This document shows, one piece after another, positions 52,520 to 62,860 of a stretch of DNA of 64,000 nucleotides. The notes beneath the pieces are model-generated. The model saw nothing but the letters and a program-made list of their open reading frames with translations. It did no database searches and was not told the DNA's origin. Made by a program: the position numbers and the translations under genes. This DNA comes from an uncultured Planctomycetota bacterium (lineage in GTDB: Bacteria > Planctomycetota > Phycisphaerae > Phycisphaerales > UBA5793): positions 18,934-82,933 of the forward strand of contig CAADHA010000166.1 of assembly GCA_900696685.1 (NCBI GenBank), in the 5' to 3' direction. The stretch's first letter is position 1. Every line of letters starts with the position of its first letter.

Positions 52520-52741
52520 ATGCTCGTCATTACTCGACGTGAAGGCGAGGAGGTCGTCATCGGCGACCCCCGCAATCCTCAGGGAGTCGTGCGAATTGCA
52601 GGAATCAAGGGGGACCGGGTGCGGATTGCATTCGAGTTTCCGCGCGATGTCCAGGTTCACCGCCGCGAGGTGGCCCAGGAGATCATCGCCAATGGAACCT
52701 CGGCTGTCGTTGCCAAGATAGGCCGCGCCGCGGCCACCTGA
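52520..52741 (+). CDS. csrA: Carbon storage regulator CsrA
   Basis: 73 residues from the ATG at 52520 with AGGAGG 8 nt upstream. It begins MLVITRREGEEVVIGD as CsrA does and has the RNA-binding end VRIAFEFPRDVQVHRREV. CsrA binds GGA-containing hairpins over ribosome-binding sites and can repress flagellin and storage genes. In other bacteria csrA sits with fliW; no fliW is visible here. The loop GDPRNPQGVV is slightly longer than usual. Confidence 0.95.
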   Translation: MLVITRREGEEVVIGDPRNPQGVVRIAGIKGDRVRIAFEFPRDVQVHRREVAQEIIANGTSAVVAKIGRAAAT

Positions 52742-53603: not shown

Positions 53604-54080
53604 ATGCGACGGATCGAAGAGCATCAACCGATGTCTGTGTGGCTGCGAACCGGCGGAACCGGATTCCGCATGGGCGCATGGCGCGCGGAGGGGATGATGA
53701 ACAGGTACAACAGCGCAGAAGAAGATCGCCGAAGGCCCGGCCGTCGAGTCGACTCTGATCGCTTCGCGGCACGGTGCGGCGATGGAGAATGCGACGCAGC
53801 GCCGCGCCGCAAATCCGCCGATGATTCCGGTGCACCGGACAGCATCTCGCATGAATCCGGCGCGGCAAACGCCGGCGGATTCACATCCGACGGCGGTGAG
53901 CATTCGGCTCGAAATGGGCCGGGGTCCATTCGCCACGACCAACTTGTTTTCGTGACATCGTTCGGCGTTCCGATCGGGCCCTCTGTGCAGGAGGCGTTGA
54001 GCGTCCCCGACGGCCTCGACGACACCCTGCCGCCCGGCGACCTGCCGGGGCAGTTGCTCCTCGATCTCGGGCTGGCATGA
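53604..54080 (+). CDS. Hypothetical protein
   Basis: 158 residues; start ATG at 53604 with GGAAGGACGG nearby. The N-terminal 100 residues are polar and rich in Arg, Asp, Ser and Gly without recognisable motif; the C-terminal about 45 residues (DQLVFVTSFGVPIGPSVQEA ... GDLPGQLLLDLGLA) look ordered. Codon use is compatible with coding but not decisive. It is listed because it is followed by another plus-strand small gene and fills an otherwise empty stretch. Could be a rapidly diverging or non-coding region. Confidence 0.4.
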   Translation: MRRIEEHQPMSVWLRTGGTGFRMGAWRAEGMMNRYNSAEEDRRRPGRRVDSDRFAARCGDGECDAAPRRKSADDSGAPDSISHESGAANAGGFTSDGGEHSARNGPGSIRHDQLVFVTSFGVPIGPSVQEALSVPDGLDDTLPPGDLPGQLLLDLGLA

Positions 54081-54283
54081 CGGGCGCTGCACCGGCAGTC
54101 CGGTGTGCACCATGGCGGACGTCGTCGAATTCAGGCGGCGCAACCACGCCTGCACTCGGGCATTTCTTGCGCTTCGGCTGCGGCACCGATTCTGCCGAAT
54201 TGAATCCTGCCGATGGGGCACTTGACTCGGGCATGCACCACGTCCATCCTTGAGGAGCATCGGGCAGGCATGGAAGCGGCCGA

Positions 54284-54667
54284 ATGAGAATTGAATCACA
54301 TCAGAACGGGTATCGCATCGTGCCGTCAAAGGGCGCTGTATCCGCTGTCGTGCGCGCGTCCGACCAGGTGGCGCATGCGTCGCCGCCGTCCGAAGGCCGC
54401 GGATCGCTGCGCTCGTTCCATGACGTGGACCGCGCGGAACTCACTTCGCTGCCGCAGGCCGATGCGGCGCTTGACGCCTCGGCGACGGATGCTTCGCTTG
54501 ATCGCATCCGCGACCGTCTTGTCGCGGGCCGGGTCGATCGACCGATCGATCTGGCGAGGCCCGGCGGATCCAATCGCGTCCTCAACCGTGCCTACTTCCT
54601 GAGCGAGCAGTCGGCGGCGGAGCGCAACTCATCGGCTGTAGGCCTGCACGTGGATGTGCGCGGATGA
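54284..54667 (+). CDS. Small hypothetical protein, possibly FlgM-like
   Basis: 127 residues. The centre has an amphipathic helix LDRIRDRLVAGRVDRPIDLA and the end reads AYFLSEQSAAERNSSAVGLH. The pattern DRLVAG-V--PIDL followed by a short N-A-A-rich segment resembles small planctomycete proteins I associate with a FlgM-type anti-sigma-28 role, and csrA lies 1.5 kb upstream. This is weak similarity from memory only. Start ATG at 54284. Confidence 0.45.
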   Translation: MRIESHQNGYRIVPSKGAVSAVVRASDQVAHASPPSEGRGSLRSFHDVDRAELTSLPQADAALDASATDASLDRIRDRLVAGRVDRPIDLARPGGSNRVLNRAYFLSEQSAAERNSSAVGLHVDVRG

Positions 54668-54758
54668 TCGGCGCACACTCGGACAGCGGTCCGAACCATC
54701 CCACGGCCCGATTTCGCGGCGGCTTGACCTCGATGTCCGGTCGACCGATTGATACAGA

Positions 54759-55586
54759 GTGATGAGCCACGCCGACCCAGACCGCCGCGACGCCGCAATG
54801 TCGCAAACGATGCAGTTTGTGTGGATCGATGCGGGCGACGCGCGTCTCGCTGCGTCGATCGATCTGCCGCAGACTCGGCCGCCCTGGCCCGTCGTGGTGC
54901 TTGTGCACGGCCTGAGCGGCGACCGCATCGGGCGCAGTTACCAGTTCGTGGAGTTCGGCCGGCGCCTGGCAGCAAAGGGCGCCGCGTGCGTGAGATTCGA
55001 TCACGCCGGTTGCGGAGAATCCACCGGCGACCAGGCATTGCTGAGCATGCGGACCGTCGAGCGCGACTGTCTTGCAGTGGCGTCGCACCTCGAGCGTGAC
55101 GACCGCATGAGCATGAGCCGCCTGGGCGTCGTGGGATCGAGCCTCGGGGCGCTCGGGGCGGTGATGACGGCGTCACGGCTGGGGGCGCGCGGCCTGGCGC
55201 TCTGGGCGCCGGTGTGCGATCTGCCCGGCATGACGGCGGCCCTCGCCAGCCGCATTCCCCTTCAGCAGACGCTTGAGGCGGTCGGCTATGCGCCTTTCAA
55301 GGGGATGCGCCTCGGGCCGGCGTACTTCGATCATCTCAAGCATCTCGATCCGGCGACACACCTGCACCATCTTCGAGGGCCGGTATTCATCGCGCACGCA
55401 CGCGAGGACCAGTCCGTGCCGATCGGACAGTCGCATCGCTATGTGGCCCTGTGCCGTGAACACGGCGTTCCCTGTGAACTGCTGGAGTTCGAGGGAGGCA
55501 CACACGACTTTCACGAGGATCCGGCGCGAACGCAACTGCTGCGCGAGACGATTGCGCGCATGACGCGCTGGCTGGGTGTGGCGTAG
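54759..55586 (+). CDS. Alpha/beta hydrolase, esterase/peptidase-like
   Basis: 275 residues starting at GTG 54759 (ATG 54762 is nearly equivalent). Core motifs are VVVLVHGLSGDRIG (oxyanion region), FDHAGCGESTGD, the nucleophile elbow VVGSSLGALGAV (Ser), AREDQSVPIG (Asp) and GGTHDFHEDP (His). It belongs to the serine hydrolases resembling YqiA/prolyl-oligopeptidase-type esterases. Cytoplasmic; substrate unknown. It converges with the amidohydrolase gene 32 bp downstream. Confidence 0.85.
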   Translation: MMSHADPDRRDAAMSQTMQFVWIDAGDARLAASIDLPQTRPPWPVVVLVHGLSGDRIGRSYQFVEFGRRLAAKGAACVRFDHAGCGESTGDQALLSMRTVERDCLAVASHLERDDRMSMSRLGVVGSSLGALGAVMTASRLGARGLALWAPVCDLPGMTAALASRIPLQQTLEAVGYAPFKGMRLGPAYFDHLKHLDPATHLHHLRGPVFIAHAREDQSVPIGQSHRYVALCREHGVPCELLEFEGGTHDFHEDPARTQLLRETIARMTRWLGVA

Positions 55587-55618
55587 GCATTGCGCCGCTC
55601 CTCAGTCTGCCGCCGTTC

Positions 55619-56314
55619 TCAGAAAGTCGAGGCGGCGGCGCGACAGGAGTCGGTCAGGGCGTCAACGAGTTGCAGCCATTCCGCCCGCGGGCGCAGGACA
55701 AACCGCTGATTGACTTCGAGCTCGATTCCGAGGTACGTGGCCGCGGCGCGGCTGTGCCGCAGCATCGTCGTCAGGCCGTCGGACGTCCCGCGGTAGGGCT
55801 GGTTGCTGTGAATGGCCAGGTCCGGACGGCGTTCGCGCAGCGCTGCGCGCCAGCGCTCGCAGAAGCGCCGCTCGAGTTCACGTGCCGGATCGTAGAGCAG
55901 GCCCACGTCGGTGCGGCGCACGCGGCCGTTGAAGACCGGCGTGAAGGTGTGCATGCCGAGGTGGATGAGCGGCCGGCCGCGTCCGCGGCTCTCGGTGATC
56001 GCGTCCATTACAGCCGCAAGGTGAGGCTCGTAATAACCCAACTCGACTTCCAGCCGCTGCTCCTTGGGCAGCGATCGAGTAATGATGGAGTACCGCGTGC
56101 GGCTGCGCGGCGTGCGGTTGAGATCGATGAGCAGGCGCGTCACATCCGAGGCGATGAGCGGGGCGGCGAGGGCGAGGGCGAAGGCGCGGCCCATGTCGAG
56201 CGAGCCGGGATCCCAGCCACGATGCGATTCGAGCAATCTGCGGTGCCGCGCGAACAGCGCGGCGTACTCTGCCGGCACACGGTTGCCGCCGTGTTCGCAG
56301 GTCACAAGAAACAC
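55619..56314 (-). CDS. N-formylglutamate amidohydrolase-family enzyme
   Basis: 231 residues from a GTG at 56312-56314, 13 bp after the preceding gene stop. A longer frame to 56605 overlaps that gene and is not family-like. The family hallmarks are VTCEHGGNRVPAEYAAL (metal Glu/His), RTRYSIITRSLP, the His of IHLGMHTFTPVF, and DVGLLYDP. It hydrolyses a formyl- or acyl-amide bond on a glutamate-like residue. It is the last gene of a four-gene operon with two amide ligases and a cysteine peptidase. Confidence 0.85.
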   Translation of the reverse strand: MFLVTCEHGGNRVPAEYAALFARHRRLLESHRGWDPGSLDMGRAFALALAAPLIASDVTRLLIDLNRTPRSRTRYSIITRSLPKEQRLEVELGYYEPHLAAVMDAITESRGRGRPLIHLGMHTFTPVFNGRVRRTDVGLLYDPARELERRFCERWRAALRERRPDLAIHSNQPYRGTSDGLTTMLRHSRAAATYLGIELEVNQRFVLRPRAEWLQLVDALTDSCRAAASTF

Positions 56315-56327
56315 GGGTCGATGCCTT

Positions 56328-57581
56328 CTAGGCGCCAGAGAACATCTCTCCTTGCTCCAGGCACTCACAGAGCCGGCGGTACACGCGCACCAGATTCGCC
56401 CGATCAGGGTCTGACCCGAGCGCGCGGGCCAGACGAGCCGCCAGCGTGCCGCGGTCGAGTATCGTGCGCAGAGCCGAACTGAGGTCCGGCGAAAGACGAT
56501 CCGAATTGAGAAGGAGCGATTCCGCGAGATGGCGCCAGAGGTCGCCGGCGGTGCAGCGCGGCGTCCCTCCCAGGCCGAACATCTCCAGGTAGGAAGGGTC
56601 TGCAATCAGCGTGTTCTCGGCCTCCTTCACCGTGCGAACGAAGAGGTCGGCGAGCGGGGCGATCGGCCAGGTCATCTGGGTCCGGGTGTCGCACCATCTC
56701 TGCTCGCACAGCGCTCTCACGACGGCGACGACGGCGCGGATGACTGCCAGATCGGCGGCGACGGTCTCCTGCACGTCGAGCACGCGGATTTCGATCGCGT
56801 CGCGGTCGAAGCGAGCGATGGCGCCGCGCGCATTAAGCCATTCGTGCTGGAGAACTCCCTCGGGATCGTGCGGGGCGATGTCGGCGTAGAGGCGCTTGAG
56901 AATCTCGTGCTCGTAGGCGGCGCGAGTGAAGACCGCTTCAGGGATGACCTCGCCGCTGATGCTCGGGATGCGCTGCGCGTTGCGGCGGTAGGCTTCGAGG
57001 CGATTGTCGAGCACGCCGGTTACGCGGCCCTCGACAACGGGCGAACTGGCCGCCAGCGCGGGCAGGATCGGCAGCACGAGACGGATGGCCGCGTGCAGCC
57101 GGCCGAACTCCTCATCACCGAAGAACGGCAGATTGAGATGCGTACTCTGGAGGTTGGCCCACCCGTGTCCCCGGCACGAGAAGATGCGGTCAAAGGCCTC
57201 GTAGGTCGGGCTGTACTCGTGAGGCCAGAGGCGCATCTCGGCGTGCGGGTCCATCCACGGGTGCATGGCGCCGGGCATGAGTCGGCCGCCCATTGGTTCG
57301 AGGATCGCGTTGATGGCGCGGACCTGCCCGGTGAACGGCTCGACGAGGGGGTCGATGGCGCGGGCCGGGTCGGTGGTTTTGAGTTCCACGACGTGCAGCG
57401 CCAGTTCGTTGGACCAGGTGATCTCGCCCGCCTCGTAATCGGAGACGTACGAGCCGGCGGCGGCGCGGATCACTTCGTCGCACGCGGGCATGACGTCGAG
57501 CGTGCCAGCGCGGACGATCATGTACTCGAGTTCGACGCCGAAGGCCTCGAAGAGATGAAGGGCTTGCCGCGGAGTACTCAC
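56328..57581 (-). CDS. GCS2-family carboxylate-amine ligase
   Basis: 417 residues. It opens LFEAFGVELEYMIVRAGTLD, the ATP/metal site of the GCS2 fold, with VELKTTDPARAIDPLVEPFT and later GWANLQSTHLNLPF and DAIEIRVLDVQETVAADLAV. GCS2 enzymes join an amino acid carboxylate to an amine with ATP. It overlaps the ATP-grasp gene by 4 bp. It is not a gshA by context: no glutathione synthetase of the GshB type is present. Glu and Cys are the usual substrates but not certain here. Confidence 0.85.
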   Translation of the reverse strand: MSTPRQALHLFEAFGVELEYMIVRAGTLDVMPACDEVIRAAAGSYVSDYEAGEITWSNELALHVVELKTTDPARAIDPLVEPFTGQVRAINAILEPMGGRLMPGAMHPWMDPHAEMRLWPHEYSPTYEAFDRIFSCRGHGWANLQSTHLNLPFFGDEEFGRLHAAIRLVLPILPALAASSPVVEGRVTGVLDNRLEAYRRNAQRIPSISGEVIPEAVFTRAAYEHEILKRLYADIAPHDPEGVLQHEWLNARGAIARFDRDAIEIRVLDVQETVAADLAVIRAVVAVVRALCEQRWCDTRTQMTWPIAPLADLFVRTVKEAENTLIADPSYLEMFGLGGTPRCTAGDLWRHLAESLLLNSDRLSPDLSSALRTILDRGTLAARLARALGSDPDRANLVRVYRRLCECLEQGEMFSGA

Positions 57582-59050
57582 AGCCTGGCCTTTCCCTCGG
57601 TGCGGGCGCGGACGCGGGCGAGGAAGCCGTTCATGATCCGGAGGTAGAGGTCGTCCTTGAGGACCTGGTCCTCGTAGCCGGCGTCGATGTTGGGGTTGTC
57701 GTTGACTTCGATGACGATTCCCTTTCGCCCGACTTCCTTGAGATCGACGCCGTAGAGACCCTGGCCCATGAGGCGGGCGGCGCCGACGGCAGCGCGGATC
57801 ACCGGCCGCGGCACACTCTCGACCGGGCAGGTGTCCACGCGGCCGTAGAATGAGGAAGAGCCGTCGCGTCCGTACTTGACGATCTGCCAGTGCTTGCGCG
57901 CCATGTGATAGCGGCAGGCCCAGAGGGGCTGTCCGGCGAACACGCCGATGCGCCAGTCAAACTGCGTGGGAAGGAACTCCTGCGCCACGAGCAGGTCTGA
58001 TTTCTCGAGCAGTTCCTCGACGCGCCGACCCAGATCCTCCTCGGCCTCCACCTTCACGACGCCGTGGGAGAAGGAACTGTCAGGCTGCTTGAGGATGCAC
58101 GGCAGGCCGAGGCATGGCACGATCTGGTCCACGTTGCCGCGATGAACGATGAGCGTGCGCGGCGAGGGAATGCGGTGCCGCTGGAGCGCTTCCGCGAGAA
58201 AGACCTTGTTCGTGCAGCGGACGATGGATTCCGGATCGTCGATGACGACAAGCCCCTCGGCAGCGGCGCGGCGCGAGAAGCGGAACGTGTGATGGTTCAC
58301 AGCCGTCGTCTCGCGAATGAAGAGGGCGTCGAACTCGCCGATTCGCCCGTAATCATCCTTGGTGATGAGCGAGGCGTCAAAGCCCACCTGCTCCGCGGCG
58401 CGAATGAACTTGCGCAGCGCCTTCGGGTTGGAGGGCGAGTCGGCGGCCTTGGGATCGTGGAGGATGGCGAGGTCGTATTGGGCGGCCTTGGGACGCGACA
58501 CGCTGCGTGCGTGGCCCGCGAAATGGCGCGTCGCCACGTCGATGAGATAGGGCCAGTGCGAATCGGGCACGTCGCTGGCCGGAATCGGCTTGATGTGCAC
58601 CAGGCGCCAGCGGTCGTCGCGAACGAAATGGGCACGCAGCATCGGCGCGGGAAAGAGGTTAAATAACTGAAGCGCCAGCCGGGTGTATCGCTGCGCCATG
58701 TTGTGGCCGAAGTAGACGCTCAGGATGAAGTGGTCCGACTGGATCGGCCCGAGGCAGTGCTGCACGAGATCATCAAGGTCGTCGGTGACGGAGCGGACGA
58801 TCGTGAGCGAGCGCATGTCCTGGATGGTGGTGACGCTCGGCAGCGGCCGGTGCCCGCGTGCGGCCGCGAGCAGTGAAACGTAATAGCCGGTGGACTGGTA
58901 GCGGTAGGAGCGGCTGAGATTGAAGACGCGCGTGTGACGCCGGCCGCTGTAGTCGGCGTCAGTGAGATAGGCCCGGCTCGAGACCACCTCGACGCCGGGC
59001 AGGTTGGAAGGCCAGTCGTCCGGGTCACTGACCACGATGAGAGCGGACAT
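57578..59050 (-). CDS. RimK-like ATP-grasp ligase with N-terminal RLAN-type domain
   Basis: 490 residues. The first about 190 residues (SALIVVSDPDDWPSNLPGV, NLSRSYRYQSTGYYVSLLAA) match the RimK-like N-terminal domain found only in this ATP-grasp group. From about residue 200 comes a linker and then the ATP-grasp core: CILKQPDSSFSHGVVKVE (ATP lysine loop), WRIGVFAGQPLWACRYH, and GVDLKEVGRKGIVIEVNDNP (metal-binding Glu and Asn). It would activate a carboxylate and attach an amino acid. Overlaps both neighbours by 26 and 4 bp. Confidence 0.9.
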   Translation of the reverse strand: MSALIVVSDPDDWPSNLPGVEVVSSRAYLTDADYSGRRHTRVFNLSRSYRYQSTGYYVSLLAAARGHRPLPSVTTIQDMRSLTIVRSVTDDLDDLVQHCLGPIQSDHFILSVYFGHNMAQRYTRLALQLFNLFPAPMLRAHFVRDDRWRLVHIKPIPASDVPDSHWPYLIDVATRHFAGHARSVSRPKAAQYDLAILHDPKAADSPSNPKALRKFIRAAEQVGFDASLITKDDYGRIGEFDALFIRETTAVNHHTFRFSRRAAAEGLVVIDDPESIVRCTNKVFLAEALQRHRIPSPRTLIVHRGNVDQIVPCLGLPCILKQPDSSFSHGVVKVEAEEDLGRRVEELLEKSDLLVAQEFLPTQFDWRIGVFAGQPLWACRYHMARKHWQIVKYGRDGSSSFYGRVDTCPVESVPRPVIRAAVGAARLMGQGLYGVDLKEVGRKGIVIEVNDNPNIDAGYEDQVLKDDLYLRIMNGFLARVRARTEGKARL

Positions 59051-59783
59051 GGGTCGCCTCTGCGCTTTCTTCGGATGGCACCGGTTCGAGGATCAGCAGG
59101 TTGGCGTCATAGGTCAGCGTGCCGAGCATGATCGCGCAGATCAGCCGGTCGATGTCCACGTGGTAGCGCTGATCAGGTGAATGGGGGTTGGAGGCCAGCG
59201 GGTCAGCCACGAGGACCTGTCTCTTCTTGGGGTCATACCCGCAGAGCACAACGAAATGCCCCGTGGGGTCGCCGCGCAGATCATCGGCCACGGCGCGATC
59301 GTTCAGATAGACCTCGCGCGAAGCGTTGTACAGGTACGTCGCGCTCAGACCCGTGAGAATCGGACGGCCCCGCTTGAGGTACTTGCGGAACAGCGCCGAG
59401 TCGATTTCGGTGAAGCGCACCTGCCCGCCGTGCGCCAGATAATCCAGGTACAGACGCGTCGCGTGATGCAGGCGCGGAGAAGGCTTGAATTCCATCTGAA
59501 GGGTGAGACGCTCGGCAAGATCGGGCGCCCCGGCGCCGAACCACGTCGGATCGAAGAGTTGGAGGTTCCATGTGTGGATGCGCGCCCGGTACCCGCGCCG
59601 GATCGCATGGTTGGCAAGCATGACCGCAAGAGTCCCGCCATCGGAGAGGCGTCCCGTCTGCTCGATCACGTCCGACAGCGCGATCCGGTCCCCGTAGTAC
59701 CCATAGACCGCGTGCAAGCACGTCGGGCCGCAGGTCGTGTCGTCCGGTTGAGCCTTGATATCAAACTGGAGATGGGTCTTCAT
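59025..59783 (-). CDS. C39-like cysteine peptidase
   Basis: 252 residues from the ATG at 59781-59783; an ATG at 59894 is less likely. It begins MKTHLQFDIKAQPDDTTCGP and continues TCLHAVYGYYG: the papain-like C39 active site with catalytic Cys in DDTTCGPT, catalytic His in GDPTGHFVVLCGYD and Asp in VLVADPLA. Such peptidases act after a double-glycine-type leader or similar; here no transporter domain follows, so it is a stand-alone enzyme. First gene of the four-gene operon; it overlaps the ATP-grasp gene by 26 bp. Confidence 0.8.
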   Translation of the reverse strand: MKTHLQFDIKAQPDDTTCGPTCLHAVYGYYGDRIALSDVIEQTGRLSDGGTLAVMLANHAIRRGYRARIHTWNLQLFDPTWFGAGAPDLAERLTLQMEFKPSPRLHHATRLYLDYLAHGGQVRFTEIDSALFRKYLKRGRPILTGLSATYLYNASREVYLNDRAVADDLRGDPTGHFVVLCGYDPKKRQVLVADPLASNPHSPDQRYHVDIDRLICAIMLGTLTYDANLLILEPVPSEESAEATHVRSHRGQ

Positions 59784-59904
59784 GGGCGAGAGGCATCGAG
59801 ACATCGAGTATGTAAAGCATCGAGGGATCGCGTGAGGTCGTGTCCGGCGCGGCTCCGGACCGCGTGCGTCATCGCTTTCGGAGGACGTCCGCACGCCGCC
59901 GGAT

Positions 59905-60972
59905 TCACGCGGGCAAAAACCCCTTTACCACTTCGATCAGAATGAGGATGATGATAATCCACTCGAGCAGTTCCAGTCGGAGGGTTGCCTGGCGGTCGGT
60001 CATCTTGTCGTAGATGCGGTCAATGGTCTCAAGTTTGCGGTTGATGTTGGCGCCCCACTGCGGCAGGTGAAAGCGCTGCGAGACGGCGCGGTAGACGCGG
60101 GAGAGGTACTGGTCGCCGACGAGTTTCATGGAGTGGGTGGCGGCCTCGAAAAGGACGGCGGAATCGGCGTGGAGAACGGCCAGCCGCCGCAACTCTCCTC
60201 CCGCGACCCCTGGAAAAGTCTGCCGCACACCCTTGAATCGCGCCATCAGTTCGTACGAAGAGTCGAGAATCCGCTCCAGTTCATCGTCCAGGGACCGCAT
60301 CTGCACAAGTTGGACGTTGGCGTACTCGAGAATGGAGCGCACGTCGTGGGCGTCCGGGCCGACGAGCATCGCGGCATGCCAGTCGATTACCGCCGCATCG
60401 GTTTCACCGTAGGCGATCGTCTGCGCCAGAGCGTCGGCAACCTCCTGGCTCGATAGCACAGCGTGCTCGGCCCGAAGGATTCTGGCAAGGATGCCGCGCC
60501 GCCGGGAAAGGAACTGCTCCACGTTCTCGTCCGGAAGCCGGGTGATTTCGAAGAGAACGTAATCCTCGACGGGCGATGCGATGCGCGGCTTGGCAATGGC
60601 GCCGCCCAATGGTTCAACAAGCCGCTCGAGGTGCTGCCTCGCCTGCCGCGCCAGTTCGCCGCGGTCGTAGAGCGCCTCGCTGAGGCCGACGAGTTCCTCC
60701 AGCGAATTGTCCAGCGCAAAGGAGAAGCGAACGGACGCGGCGCCGAAAGAGTACAGGACAATGTCGACAGTCGAGGCGGAGAGGCAGCCGGCAATTTCGA
60801 TCGCCGGCGTCGGCTCCGTAATGCTCAGGGGCACCTCCTGCTGCTGGATCGACTGCGGCGCCCGCTTTTTCTTGAGAATCTCGGCGCGCCGGCTGATCGC
60901 GGCGATCGCCCGCTCCGCCTCGTCAAGGTTGATCGAGAAGGCGATGTCGAAGGCGTAGACCGCGTGGCACAC
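59905..60972 (-). CDS. DUF155 (RMD1/YagE-like) membrane protein
   Basis: 355 residues from a GTG at 60970-60972; an ATG at 61095 would add 41 residues of poor character. Its opening VCHAVYAFDIAFSINLDEAE and the block LVGPDAHDVRSILEYANVQL then VQMRSLDDELERILDSSYEL are typical of DUF155. The protein ends in a hydrophobic helix (LELLEWIIIILILIEVVKGF), so it is membrane-anchored by its C-terminus. Relatives in yeast (RMD1) and mitochondria have unclear roles. It lies 157 bp downstream of rho. Confidence 0.8.
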   Translation of the reverse strand: MCHAVYAFDIAFSINLDEAERAIAAISRRAEILKKKRAPQSIQQQEVPLSITEPTPAIEIAGCLSASTVDIVLYSFGAASVRFSFALDNSLEELVGLSEALYDRGELARQARQHLERLVEPLGGAIAKPRIASPVEDYVLFEITRLPDENVEQFLSRRRGILARILRAEHAVLSSQEVADALAQTIAYGETDAAVIDWHAAMLVGPDAHDVRSILEYANVQLVQMRSLDDELERILDSSYELMARFKGVRQTFPGVAGGELRRLAVLHADSAVLFEAATHSMKLVGDQYLSRVYRAVSQRFHLPQWGANINRKLETIDRIYDKMTDRQATLRLELLEWIIIILILIEVVKGFLPA

Positions 60973-61129
60973 GCCATGAACGAGATCGTGCCCGCCCGCG
61001 CCTTCAATTGACCCGGAACGATTGGCTGGTCCATCCACCACGACTCGGCGCTCACTCTTCCCGATCGATGCGGCGGGGTGCGGGGATCCGGTCATGCAGC
61101 GCCGCCCCCCCCCCTTCCCGCCGCACGGC

Positions 61130-62695
61130 CTAACTCAGGTTCATCGTCATGAGGAACTCCGCGTTGGAACTGGTCTTCTCGAGGCGCGACTTGAGCAGTT
61201 CCATCGCTTCCACCACATTCATGTCGCTGAGCACTTTGCGCAATCGATAGACCAGCTCGAGCTCCTTCGGGTCCAGCAGCAGTTCCTCCCGGCGCGTGCC
61301 CGAGGCGCTGATGTCAATCGCCGGGTAGATGCGCTTGGCGACAAGGCGGCGGTCGAGGTGCAGTTCGCTGTTGCCCGTGCCCTTGAACTCCTCGAAGATG
61401 ATGTCGTCGGCGCGGCTGCCCGTGTCGATGAGAGCAGTGGCGATGATGGTGAGCGACCCGCCGTTCTCGATGTTGCGCGCGGCCCCGAAGAACTTCTTTG
61501 GCTTCTGAAGCGCGCCGGTGTCGATGCCGCCCGTGCCGATCTTGCCCGAGTGCGGCATCTCGTTGTTGTACGCGCGGGCCAGGCGCGTGATCGAGTCGAG
61601 CAGGATCACGCAGTCATCTCCAAACTCGACATAGCGCTTCGCCTTGTCAATGACCATCTCGGCGACCTGCACGTGCCGCGCCGTCTGCTCATCGAACGTC
61701 GCCGCGACGACCTCGACCTCCGGAGGGGTGCTGCGACGGAAGTCCGTCACTTCCTCCGGCCGCTCGTCGATGAGCAGCACGATGATCTTCGTCCCCGGGC
61801 AGTTCTTGATGATCGCGTTGGCCATCTTCTGGAGCAGCACCGTCTTGCCCGTGCGAGGCGGGGCGACGATCAGCGCCCGCTGGCCCTTGCCCAGCGGCGT
61901 CACCAGGTCGACGACGCGCATGTTGATCTCTTTCGACGTGGTTTCGAGCACCAGCCTCTTGTCCGGGTGCAGCGGAGTGAGGTCCTCGAACGTCGGAAGG
62001 TGGTGGAGCACTTCGGGAGACCGGCCGTTGACGCGGTCGACCCGCAGCAGGGCGAAGTACCGCTCCGACTCCTTGGGTGGGCGCACGGTCCCCTCGACGA
62101 TGCAGCCCTGCCTCAGGCCGAATCGCCTGATCTGGCTCGGGCTGACGTAGATGTCGTCGGGGCAGGGCAGGTAGGAGTAGGCGGGCGAGCGGAGGAAGCC
62201 GAAGCCGTCGGGGAGAATCTCGAGCACGCCTTCTCCGACCATGAGGCCCTGGTTGACCATTCGCGCCTTGAGGAGGCGGAATATCAGTTCCTGCTTCTTC
62301 AGGCCCGCAGTCTCGGTGATGCCTTCCTTCGCGGCGACCTTGAGGAGGTCTTCGAGATCCATGCTCTGGAGTTCGGAGATGTGGAGCACGTCGCCGCCTT
62401 CGCCCCCGCCTGACCCGTCCACGGGTGGAAGCGTGGCGAGCGCCTGGGCTTCGGCTTCAAGATCCTCGTCCCTGGGCAGTGCGGCCGGGTTCACGGGAGG
62501 CTGCACGCTTGACTGCATGCCTCCGCCCCCTCCTCCGTTGCCCTTCTTGCGCCGGCGGCGGTTGGCCTTCTTCTGACCGTTCTTCCGCTTCATCGCGGTC
62601 TGCTGGTTGATGTCCACTGGTGAACTCCACGAATGGGAGGTGCGGCTCTCGCCGGCCTGCGCTGGGGTGGGAGGACTTGTCGATTCGGCTGTCAT
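61130..62695 (-). CDS. rho: Transcription termination factor Rho with extended N-terminus
   Basis: 521 residues from the ATG at 62693-62695 (an ATG at 62761 is possible). Family motifs: N-terminal [23 protein letters not shown]-binding [20 protein letters not shown], Walker A APPRTGKT, Walker [19 protein letters not shown], and [28 protein letters not shown] at the C-terminal part. Between about residue 30 and 90 it has a Lys/Arg-rich and Gly-rich insert ([20 protein letters not shown]) before the usual start. It ends about 520 bp upstream of the C39 gene across the DUF155 gene. Confidence 0.95.
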
Positions 62696-62860
62696 GGGAA
62701 TACCGTGTCTTGCGTGATCAAAGGGTGGGCGTGCGGGGCACACGAGAGATGCACATCGCACTCTGATCGGGATGGGCCGGCTGTCGAAGCCTCGCGGGCA
62801 GGCACAGACAATCCGAGAAAGCGAGCGGGGAGGTGATGCCTTGGCCGTGAAGGCCGATTC

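Follow-up and report, generated by a model that had tools for sequence, protein, structure and literature searches.

Gene content of the locus

The window, by which we mean the whole 64,000-nucleotide stretch of DNA that was analysed, contains four minus-strand genes in the order C39 peptidase, ATP-grasp ligase, GCS2 ligase and FGase-family hydrolase (Table 1). All four are present as the first-pass annotation had them, and its spacing was also borne out: the C39 and ATP-grasp genes overlap by 26 bp, the ATP-grasp and GCS2 genes overlap by 4 bp, and the GCS2 stop lies 13 bp from the FGase start if the latter is the GTG at 56314. This GTG has AGAAGG just upstream; translation could also begin at an in-frame GTG at 56368. 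In the window proteins, the matches to PF13529, PF14401, PF08443, PF04107 and PF05013 each exceed the family's own Pfam gathering cut-off. No export signal was evident by eye in any of the four proteins, including the C39 protein, and the chemistry is therefore likely to be cytosolic. A riboswitch or other RNA was also considered; none was found in window positions 54000-62800, and in eight loci the only hit was a tRNA-Sec (L052), away from the operon.

Table 1. Operon genes and the RLAN domain, in window coordinates.
Feature	Position	Strand	Description
C39-like papain-fold cysteine peptidase	59025..59783	-	252 aa; PF13529
RLAN + RimK-like ATP-grasp ligase	57578..59050	-	490 aa; PF14401 + PF08443
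RLAN domain, residues 1-180	58511..59050	-	predicted degenerate ATP-grasp fold
GCS2-family carboxylate-amine ligase	56328..57581	-	417 aa, GTG start; PF04107
FGase-family amidohydrolase (N-formylglutamate amidohydrolase family)	55619..56314	-	likely GTG start; PF05013

Conservation of the four-gene block

The 80 loci fetched for comparison are those that match the window's own ATP-grasp protein best, so the sample leans toward the window's type. The ATP-grasp gene is accompanied by GCS2 in 70 of the 80, by C39 in 70 and by FGase in 45. When the 26 loci without full flanks were left out, all four genes were found in 34 of the remaining 54, GCS2 in 50 and C39 in 45; FGase was absent from 20 and C39 from 9, and the amidohydrolase (34/54) is the least constant member of the block. 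Two loci (L033 and L034) have C39 and ATP-grasp genes with no GCS2 match within 5.9 and 8.0 kb downstream, respectively. With starts chosen by rule (2 of 70 C39 and 13 of 45 FGase matches were given none), ATP-grasp and GCS2 overlap in 49/70 loci, C39 and ATP-grasp in 32/68 and GCS2 and FGase in 30/32. Chance would fall far short of explaining this gene arrangement.

The ATP-grasp and GCS2 pair recurs in records labelled with 15 phyla. Among 61 relatives, the window's own genome included, GCS2 was found in 17 of the 22 that have an ATP-grasp match over the full length and in none of the other 39; in 294 genomes of the phylum, ATP-grasp occurs in 66, GCS2 in 57 and both in 55 (kinship ignored). 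On these counts the four families do co-occur as a block, which is what the first-pass annotation's proposal of a joint system supposed. No paper describing the block was found among the literature matches listed. Of 72,556 plasmid records, only 11 contain a match to the ATP-grasp protein at E 1e-40, each below 60% identity. Phage cargo and a defence system were both rejected, as phage sequences gave no match at E 1e-5 and PADLOC gave none at E 0.001.

The ATP-grasp protein and its RLAN domain

The ATP-grasp protein matches RLAN (PF14401) with 156.1 bits against a gathering score of 25 and RimK (PF08443) with 27.9 bits against 21; it falls below the NCBIfam RimK family cut-off (55.7 of 143.4 bits). 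We aligned the window proteins with those relatives that had an assigned start (46/70 GCS2, 48/80 ATP-grasp, 43/68 C39 and 29/32 FGase sequences). Lysine, aspartate, glutamate and asparagine residues in the C-terminal ATP-grasp half are invariant in this alignment, as would be expected of a working ATP-grasp site. Y51, Q52, Y57, R65 and H67 are also among the protein's invariant residues. A TGA inside three matches from one genus raised the possibility of a selenocysteine, which was discarded when the TGA proved to be the terminal stop (L013, L014 and L015).

A long N-terminal domain had been noted in this protein beforehand. That domain is RLAN, and we can go a step further in that its structure model (pLDDT 92.6) has the predicted fold of a shrunken, degenerate ATP-grasp enzyme. 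The superposition that Foldseek itself gives is loose (rmsd 8.9). An internal duplication provable from sequence was rejected, as aligning RLAN with the C-terminal half in hhalign yielded a probability of only 1.1, and it is thus the predicted structure that carries the proposed relation. The Pfam domain RLAN is listed as a fold that is uncharacterised, and we know of no earlier report of a degenerate ATP-grasp fold for it; if our reading holds, the model gives structural meaning to PF14401.

The GCS2 ligase, the FGase-like hydrolase and glutathione

The GCS2 protein scores 93.5 bits against PF04107, and its structure model is closest to YbdK and to plant glutamate-cysteine ligase. It lies far under every curated glutamate-cysteine ligase cut-off, the best being 49.3 of 176.4 bits for the YbdK-family model, so that glutamate as the donor is something we infer from the fold. 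This low score and its setting in a conserved operon also distinguish it from the YbdK carboxylate-amine ligase. The FGase protein scores 79.8 bits against PF05013 and matches 2odf by profile (E 3.8e-40); it has no NCBIfam match at E 0.001 and is not matched by the HutG N-formylglutamate deformylase model TIGR02017, for which the relative in L041 scores 21.3 of 278.75 bits.

Glutathione synthesis (GshA/GshB, GshF) likewise pairs a glutamine-synthetase-fold ligase with an ATP-grasp ligase, sometimes in one polypeptide, and the operon might simply encode diverged enzymes of ordinary glutathione or gamma-glutamylcysteine biosynthesis. We consider this very improbable, in agreement with the first-pass annotation, whose proposal supposed the ligases not to be ordinary glutathione enzymes. 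Both ligases are below the curated cut-offs, and, unlike the glutathione systems, the operon has an extra RLAN domain and two hydrolases. Furthermore, no match to the GshB-type domain PF02955 was found in the window's own genome or in G000-G004, and among the 61 relatives strong matches (E < 1e-50) occur in three only, none of which has the operon. Of the 17 relatives that have the operon, 8 give weak PF02955 matches; several coincide with weak RimK-type matches and so are probably other ATP-grasp enzymes. Nor does glutathione synthesis fit the alternation of GCS2 with an acyltransferase that we describe below.

Fusions and exchange of the GCS2 partner

In four genomes (L131-L134) RLAN, ATP-grasp and GCS2 are fused as one polypeptide. 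ATP-grasp comes first in these fusions, the reverse of GshF, in which it does not. Eight GCS2-less loci carry a GNAT acyltransferase instead, adjacent to the ATP-grasp gene or, in three cases, fused to it; since our GNAT profile was built from the same eight loci that it finds, their assignment rests on Pfam. Further GNAT cases are a weak one in L040 and an inserted gene in L035. The 110-locus survey of GCS2 and GNAT counts two places twice (L031 = L111 and L036 = L113, both GCS2-type), and a quick tree implies at least three changes of partner. We know of no earlier report of GCS2 fused to such an ATP-grasp protein, or of GNAT standing in for GCS2 at such loci. The alternation leads to a chemical prediction, namely that the same amino group would receive a gamma-glutamyl cap in one type of locus and an acyl cap in the other.

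The fusions could also be read in another way. The two ligases might make a longer amino-acid polymer, a reserve or osmolyte, which the C39 and FGase-like enzymes would break down again, as cyanophycinase does with the product of cyanophycin synthetase. We are aware of no polymer of this kind in these hosts, and the GCS2/GNAT alternation is easier to reconcile with a cap at the N-terminus than with a repeating unit; we regard a polymer as distinctly improbable. In its favor, the fused chains of L131-L134 are organised much as the domains of CphA1 (PMC9262961), a protein with an ATP-grasp domain, another ligase domain and an N domain responsible for binding and cutting the polymer, and RimK makes poly-alpha-glutamate peptides (PMC12239564).

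The C39 peptidase and the genomic surroundings

The C39 protein scores about 45.5-46.1 bits against PF13529, and Q12, C18, H176 and D194 are invariant in an alignment of 44 sequences. A Cys-His-Asp triad is thus present and, by homology, is probably catalytic. Most PDB entries related to it in sequence are C39 domains from bacteriocin transporters, which brings to mind maturation of a ribosomal peptide encoded elsewhere, with C39 cutting off a leader of the double-glycine type and the ATP-grasp enzyme making macrocycles; ATP-grasp ligases do act in several peptide natural-product pathways (PMC8939145). We give this scenario very little credence. The window protein is a stand-alone domain with no fused ABC transporter, and, as had been stated at the outset, neither a precursor nor a transporter turned up nearby: the 94 flanks, each comprising 900 bp upstream and 800 bp downstream, hold 955 ORFs of 20-100 aa, of which no candidate precursor peptide or tag gene was common to more than four other loci, the best-shared being from five close relatives or antisense to other genes, and no transporter was recognised by eye among the 30 recurrent neighbour clusters listed.

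A neighbour of a different kind is an EgtC-like gene; EgtC takes off a gamma-glutamyl group. It adjoins the operon in G001-G004 and in four loci of gammaproteobacteria; the genome that the window comes from has it on another contig. Eight of the nine strong carriers among the 61 relatives have the operon, and among the 294 genomes 11 of the 26 carriers have GCS2 and 15 do not (Fisher p 0.0042, kinship ignored). None of these homologues reaches the curated cut-off, and the link to the operon is modest.

A proposed pathway for an N-capped peptide

We tentatively favor, at somewhat under an even chance, the possibility that the four enzymes form a pathway that builds and recycles a small N-capped peptide by glutathione-like chemistry. 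In this model: (i) an amino group would be capped, with a gamma-glutamyl group by GCS2 or with an acyl group in the GNAT-type relatives; (ii) the RLAN ATP-grasp enzyme would activate the carboxylate that is still free on the capped intermediate, then attach a further amino acid, the degenerate RLAN half perhaps holding or orienting the substrate rather than binding ATP; and (iii) the papain-like C39 and FGase-like hydrolases would cleave the product's amide bonds in the course of trimming, transfer or turnover, probably all in the cytosol. We count in its favor the conserved block, the fusions, the loci with GNAT for GCS2, the GCS2 model, the EgtC-like enrichment and the lack of a shared precursor ORF, and against it the sub-threshold GCS2 scores, the loci without FGase or C39, L033 and L034, the modest EgtC link and the hhalign and rmsd values for RLAN. 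The earlier proposal of a pathway that makes and cuts amide bonds is supported in part and stands as the best reading of a conserved block; its substrates we infer.

RimK adds residues to the C-terminus of ribosomal protein S6, and the operon might instead modify a cellular protein, with C39 exposing or removing a terminus, the RimK-like enzyme adding C-terminal residues and the others editing the tag. We think this unlikely. PafA and Dop, to which a ligase of pupylation-like tagging would be nearest, were not the closest relatives of the ligase. The Rim and Rlo loci of Pseudomonas also pair an ATP-grasp ligase with a peptidase; that peptidase is aspartic and retropepsin-like where the window's is papain-like, and no GCS2 gene is named for them in the accessible text of PMC12239564.

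Precedent for an N-capped peptide comes from the NAGGN osmolyte pathway. Its enzyme Ngg is a GNAT plus ATP-grasp protein. Ngg N-acetylates one glutamine and forms a peptide bond with a second (PMC8070244), much as amino capping and peptide-bond formation are combined in our model. The operon differs from NAGGN in having no asparagine-synthase-type gene and in that its ATP-grasp protein has no TIGR03103 match at E 0.001; the fused GNAT-RLAN proteins of L136 and L128 are likewise unmatched at this threshold, and the GNAT of L135 scores 29.7 of 569 bits.

Iyer et al. reportedly catalogued RLAN RimK-like ATP-grasp systems with a GNAT partner in 2009, so the first-pass annotation's remark that comparable amidoligase neighbourhoods had been catalogued was probably sound for RLAN systems. 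These systems (PMC10318531, PMC4431377) resemble the window in combining RLAN and ATP-grasp with a peptidase of the papain type and another partner that forms amide bonds, but have GNAT and DUF3335 where the window has GCS2, an FGase-like hydrolase and a C39_2 peptidase. We found DUF3335 in the GNAT-type loci L135 and L139.

A bolder version, which we consider rather doubtful, is that these loci make a widespread class of N-capped peptide outside glutathione, mycothiol, bacillithiol and NAGGN, in which a dead, shrunken RLAN ATP-grasp would grip the substrate and GCS2 and GNAT caps, swapped by lineage, would be two dialects of one metabolite. If so, about a fifth of the sampled genomes of the phylum (57/294 with GCS2) would use the gamma-glutamyl dialect, and a metabolite common among environmental bacteria of many phyla would have escaped notice. 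All four genes are present in Marivirga sericea (L082), Rufibacter glacialis (L085) and Thiobacillus thioparus (L052), and three of the four in Blastopirellula marina (L037); as named strains carry them, the genes could be assayed at once.

Conservation of the four-gene block

The four minus-strand genes and family assignments of the first-pass annotation were all borne out by ORFs and Pfam, in the same order (see table), as was the spacing. The first two junctions overlap by 26 and 4 bp, and the third is a gap of 13 bp when GTG 56314, with AGAAGG a short way upstream, is taken as the start of the N-formylglutamate amidohydrolase-family (FGase) gene. The window is part of contig C166 of a 4.3 Mb assembly of 215 contigs, and within this genome the queries for GCS2, FGase and C39 each have one match.

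The arrangement is conserved. At least 589 loci encoding a relative of the ATP-grasp protein came from a scan of genome contigs, the best 80 of which were retained; a protein search gave at least 8000 homologues. Profiles built from these same best 80 loci detected GCS2 and C39 in 70 each and FGase in 45 of the 80; an overlap between the ATP-grasp gene and GCS2 is seen in 49 of 70 loci. Where the flanks extended 2.5 kb or more upstream and 4 kb or more downstream (n=54), GCS2 was present in 50 loci, C39 in 45, FGase in 34 and all four genes in 34; the neighbourhood does recur in other genomes. Apart from the block and its antisense shadows, no neighbour cluster listed occurs in more than 8 of the 80 loci. 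ATP-grasp and GCS2 occur together in records labelled with 15 different phyla; MAG labels can be wrong. The closest named relatives, among the best 80 of at least 589 loci, are MAGs labelled Planctomycetota or Vicinamibacteraceae, the latter label probably being wrong. The titles of the L072 (Klebsiella pneumoniae) and L031 (Vicinamibacteraceae) records look wrong, because these records group with uncultured gammaproteobacteria and with planctomycete-like genomes.

Co-occurrence gave the same picture. Among 61 relatives (own genome included), 22 have a full-length ATP-grasp match and 17 of these have GCS2, which occurs nowhere else in the set; FGase (14 genomes) is confined to those 17, and C39 (17 genomes) accompanies GCS2 in 16 and is otherwise found in one genome (G055) without full-length ATP-grasp or GCS2. 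Across 294 genomes of the phylum, ATP-grasp occurs in 66, GCS2 in 57, C39 in 51 and FGase in 49, with all four in 37. The co-occurrence test proposed in the first-pass annotation found ATP-grasp and GCS2 together in 55 genomes (Fisher p 7.6e-46, uncorrected for kinship), ATP-grasp without GCS2 in 11 and the reverse in 2. FGase without GCS2 was seen in 5 genomes, where its matches score weakly (E 4.6e-13 to 2.2e-20) and may belong to another subfamily.

The gene before the block, for a 396-aa protein, also neighbours C39 in several relatives at order level, where its orientation varies. It is likewise adjacent to the C39 gene of locus L141, in a genome with neither a full-length ATP-grasp match nor a GCS2 match.

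Coordinates of the block, its neighbours and genes in fetched loci (L numbers)
Feature	Sequence	Position	Strand	Remark
C39-like peptidase	window	59025-59783	-	first of four consecutive genes
RLAN + RimK-like ATP-grasp ligase	window	57578-59050	-	second
GCS2-family ligase	window	56328-57581	-	third
FGase-family amidohydrolase	window	55619-56314	-	fourth
Alpha/beta hydrolase	window	54759-55586	+	next gene after block (Pfam)
396-aa protein	window	59905-61095	-	gene before block; no Pfam or NCBIfam match
CsrA-type regulator-like ORF	window	~52520-52741	+	read by eye; ends at 52741
EgtC-like, class II glutamine amidotransferase type	L031	11442-12296		beside operon
Same type	L032	11438-12292		beside operon
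Same type	L041	6302-7270		beside operon
Same type	L042	1289-2131		beside operon
Same type	L049	6232-7083		beside operon
Same type	L072	6301-7149		beside operon
GNAT-nitrilase	L035	6302-7861		GNAT-carbon-nitrogen-hydrolase fusion
Family ATP-grasp	L142	3902-5491		Pseudomonas aeruginosa plasmid record

Fusions and exchange of the GCS2 partner

In four loci (L131-L134, the first two from one genus) RLAN, the N-terminal domain of the ATP-grasp protein, is joined to ATP-grasp and GCS2 on a single polypeptide of 990 to 1028 aa, and in a fifth case (genome G284) the ATP-grasp and GCS2 matches fall within one 1001-aa frame. Eight other loci have a GNAT acyltransferase and no GCS2, C39 or FGase match within 2.5 kb. 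The GNAT gene lies downstream of and overlaps the ATP-grasp gene in L102 and L105, is fused at the N-terminus in L128, L129 and L136, and lies upstream in L137 (alone) and in L135 and L139 (as GNAT-DUF3335). DUF3335 is, according to Pfam, a family of C39-like peptidases, and therefore at least two GNAT-type loci also have a papain-like peptidase.

Over 110 loci, a count that includes two places twice, the partner within 2.5 kb was GCS2 only in 90, GNAT only in 8, both in 1 and neither in 11. The single locus with both (L040) has a weak GNAT match 2 kb away; among the partnerless loci, the sequence ends nearby in L051 and L089 but continues far downstream in L033 and L034, still with no GCS2. 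A tree quickly built from 96 ATP-grasp proteins, which carries long-branch warnings, requires four changes of partner, or at least three counting well-supported branches only, with 11 rows that have no known partner left out of the count.

Some loci depart from these arrangements. L033, L034 and L107 have C39 and ATP-grasp with no GCS2 match although downstream sequence is present, FGase lying 248 bp past the ATP-grasp gene in L107. The GNAT-nitrilase gene of L035 is an exception, standing between C39 and ATP-grasp in a GCS2-type block. Within 2.5 kb of the RLAN ATP-grasp genes of L125 and L127 (genomes G028 and G056) and L126 (G010), none of GCS2, C39, FGase and GNAT is matched; judging by eye, the genes of L125 and L127 are preceded by one for a repeat-rich protein of ~1440 aa. 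The 11 annotated features surrounding the L142 gene include no GCS2, C39 or GNAT.

A predicted capped-peptide pathway

GCS2-fold and GNAT enzymes alike acylate amino groups. Their alternation beside one ATP-grasp scaffold therefore suggests a single pathway slot, amino-group capping, which would be filled by GCS2 in the window's type and by GNAT in the other, with the ATP-grasp enzyme predicted to act at the carboxyl side. Amino capping is likewise paired with peptide-bond formation by Ngg, synthetase of the NAGGN osmolyte pathway and a GNAT plus ATP-grasp protein. Because of the capping-slot reading and this parallel, we predict a small capped peptide as product, which would be gamma-glutamyl in the window's type, and the two hydrolases may trim, transfer or recycle it. 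In the NAGGN pathway a single protein, Ngg, serves for both glutamine acetylation and peptide bond formation (PMC8070244).

Curated cut-offs ruled out the ATP-grasp protein as RimK, LysX or the NAGGN synthetase, and the FGase-family protein as the histidine-degradation deformylase HutG. The first-pass annotation had raised the possibility that these are ordinary glutathione enzymes. Standard glutathione synthesis is unlikely from missed curated cut-offs and a GshB-domain search, and the case is strongest for the window's own genus, where GshB-domain matches are entirely absent. Counting weak ones too, 26 of the 61 relatives have GshB-domain matches over the cut-off, and 8 of these 26 belong to the 17 genomes with the operon. 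Such weak matches probably represent other ATP-grasp enzymes.

RLAN ATP-grasp systems are already known, reportedly having been described by Iyer et al. in 2009; the literature matches listed contained nothing on the GCS2/FGase block, the GCS2/GNAT alternation or RLAN as an ATP-grasp fold. Two papers citing Iyer et al. mention a DUF3335 fusion to GNAT (PMC10318531) and operons with linked peptide ligases (PMC4431377).

An EgtC-like gene may point to a gamma-glutamyl product as well, because EgtC removes a gamma-glutamyl group; none of the matches reaches the curated EgtC cut-off, and the link is therefore a hint only. Eight of nine strong carriers among the 61 relatives have the operon (five of the eight being one genus), and among the 294 genomes GCS2 is present in 11 of 26 carriers (p 0.0042); at genus level the comparison is 11/21 versus 44/210 (p 0.00075). 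The gene adjoins the operon in four genomes (G001-G004), and in the window's own genome it lies on contig C92, outside the window.
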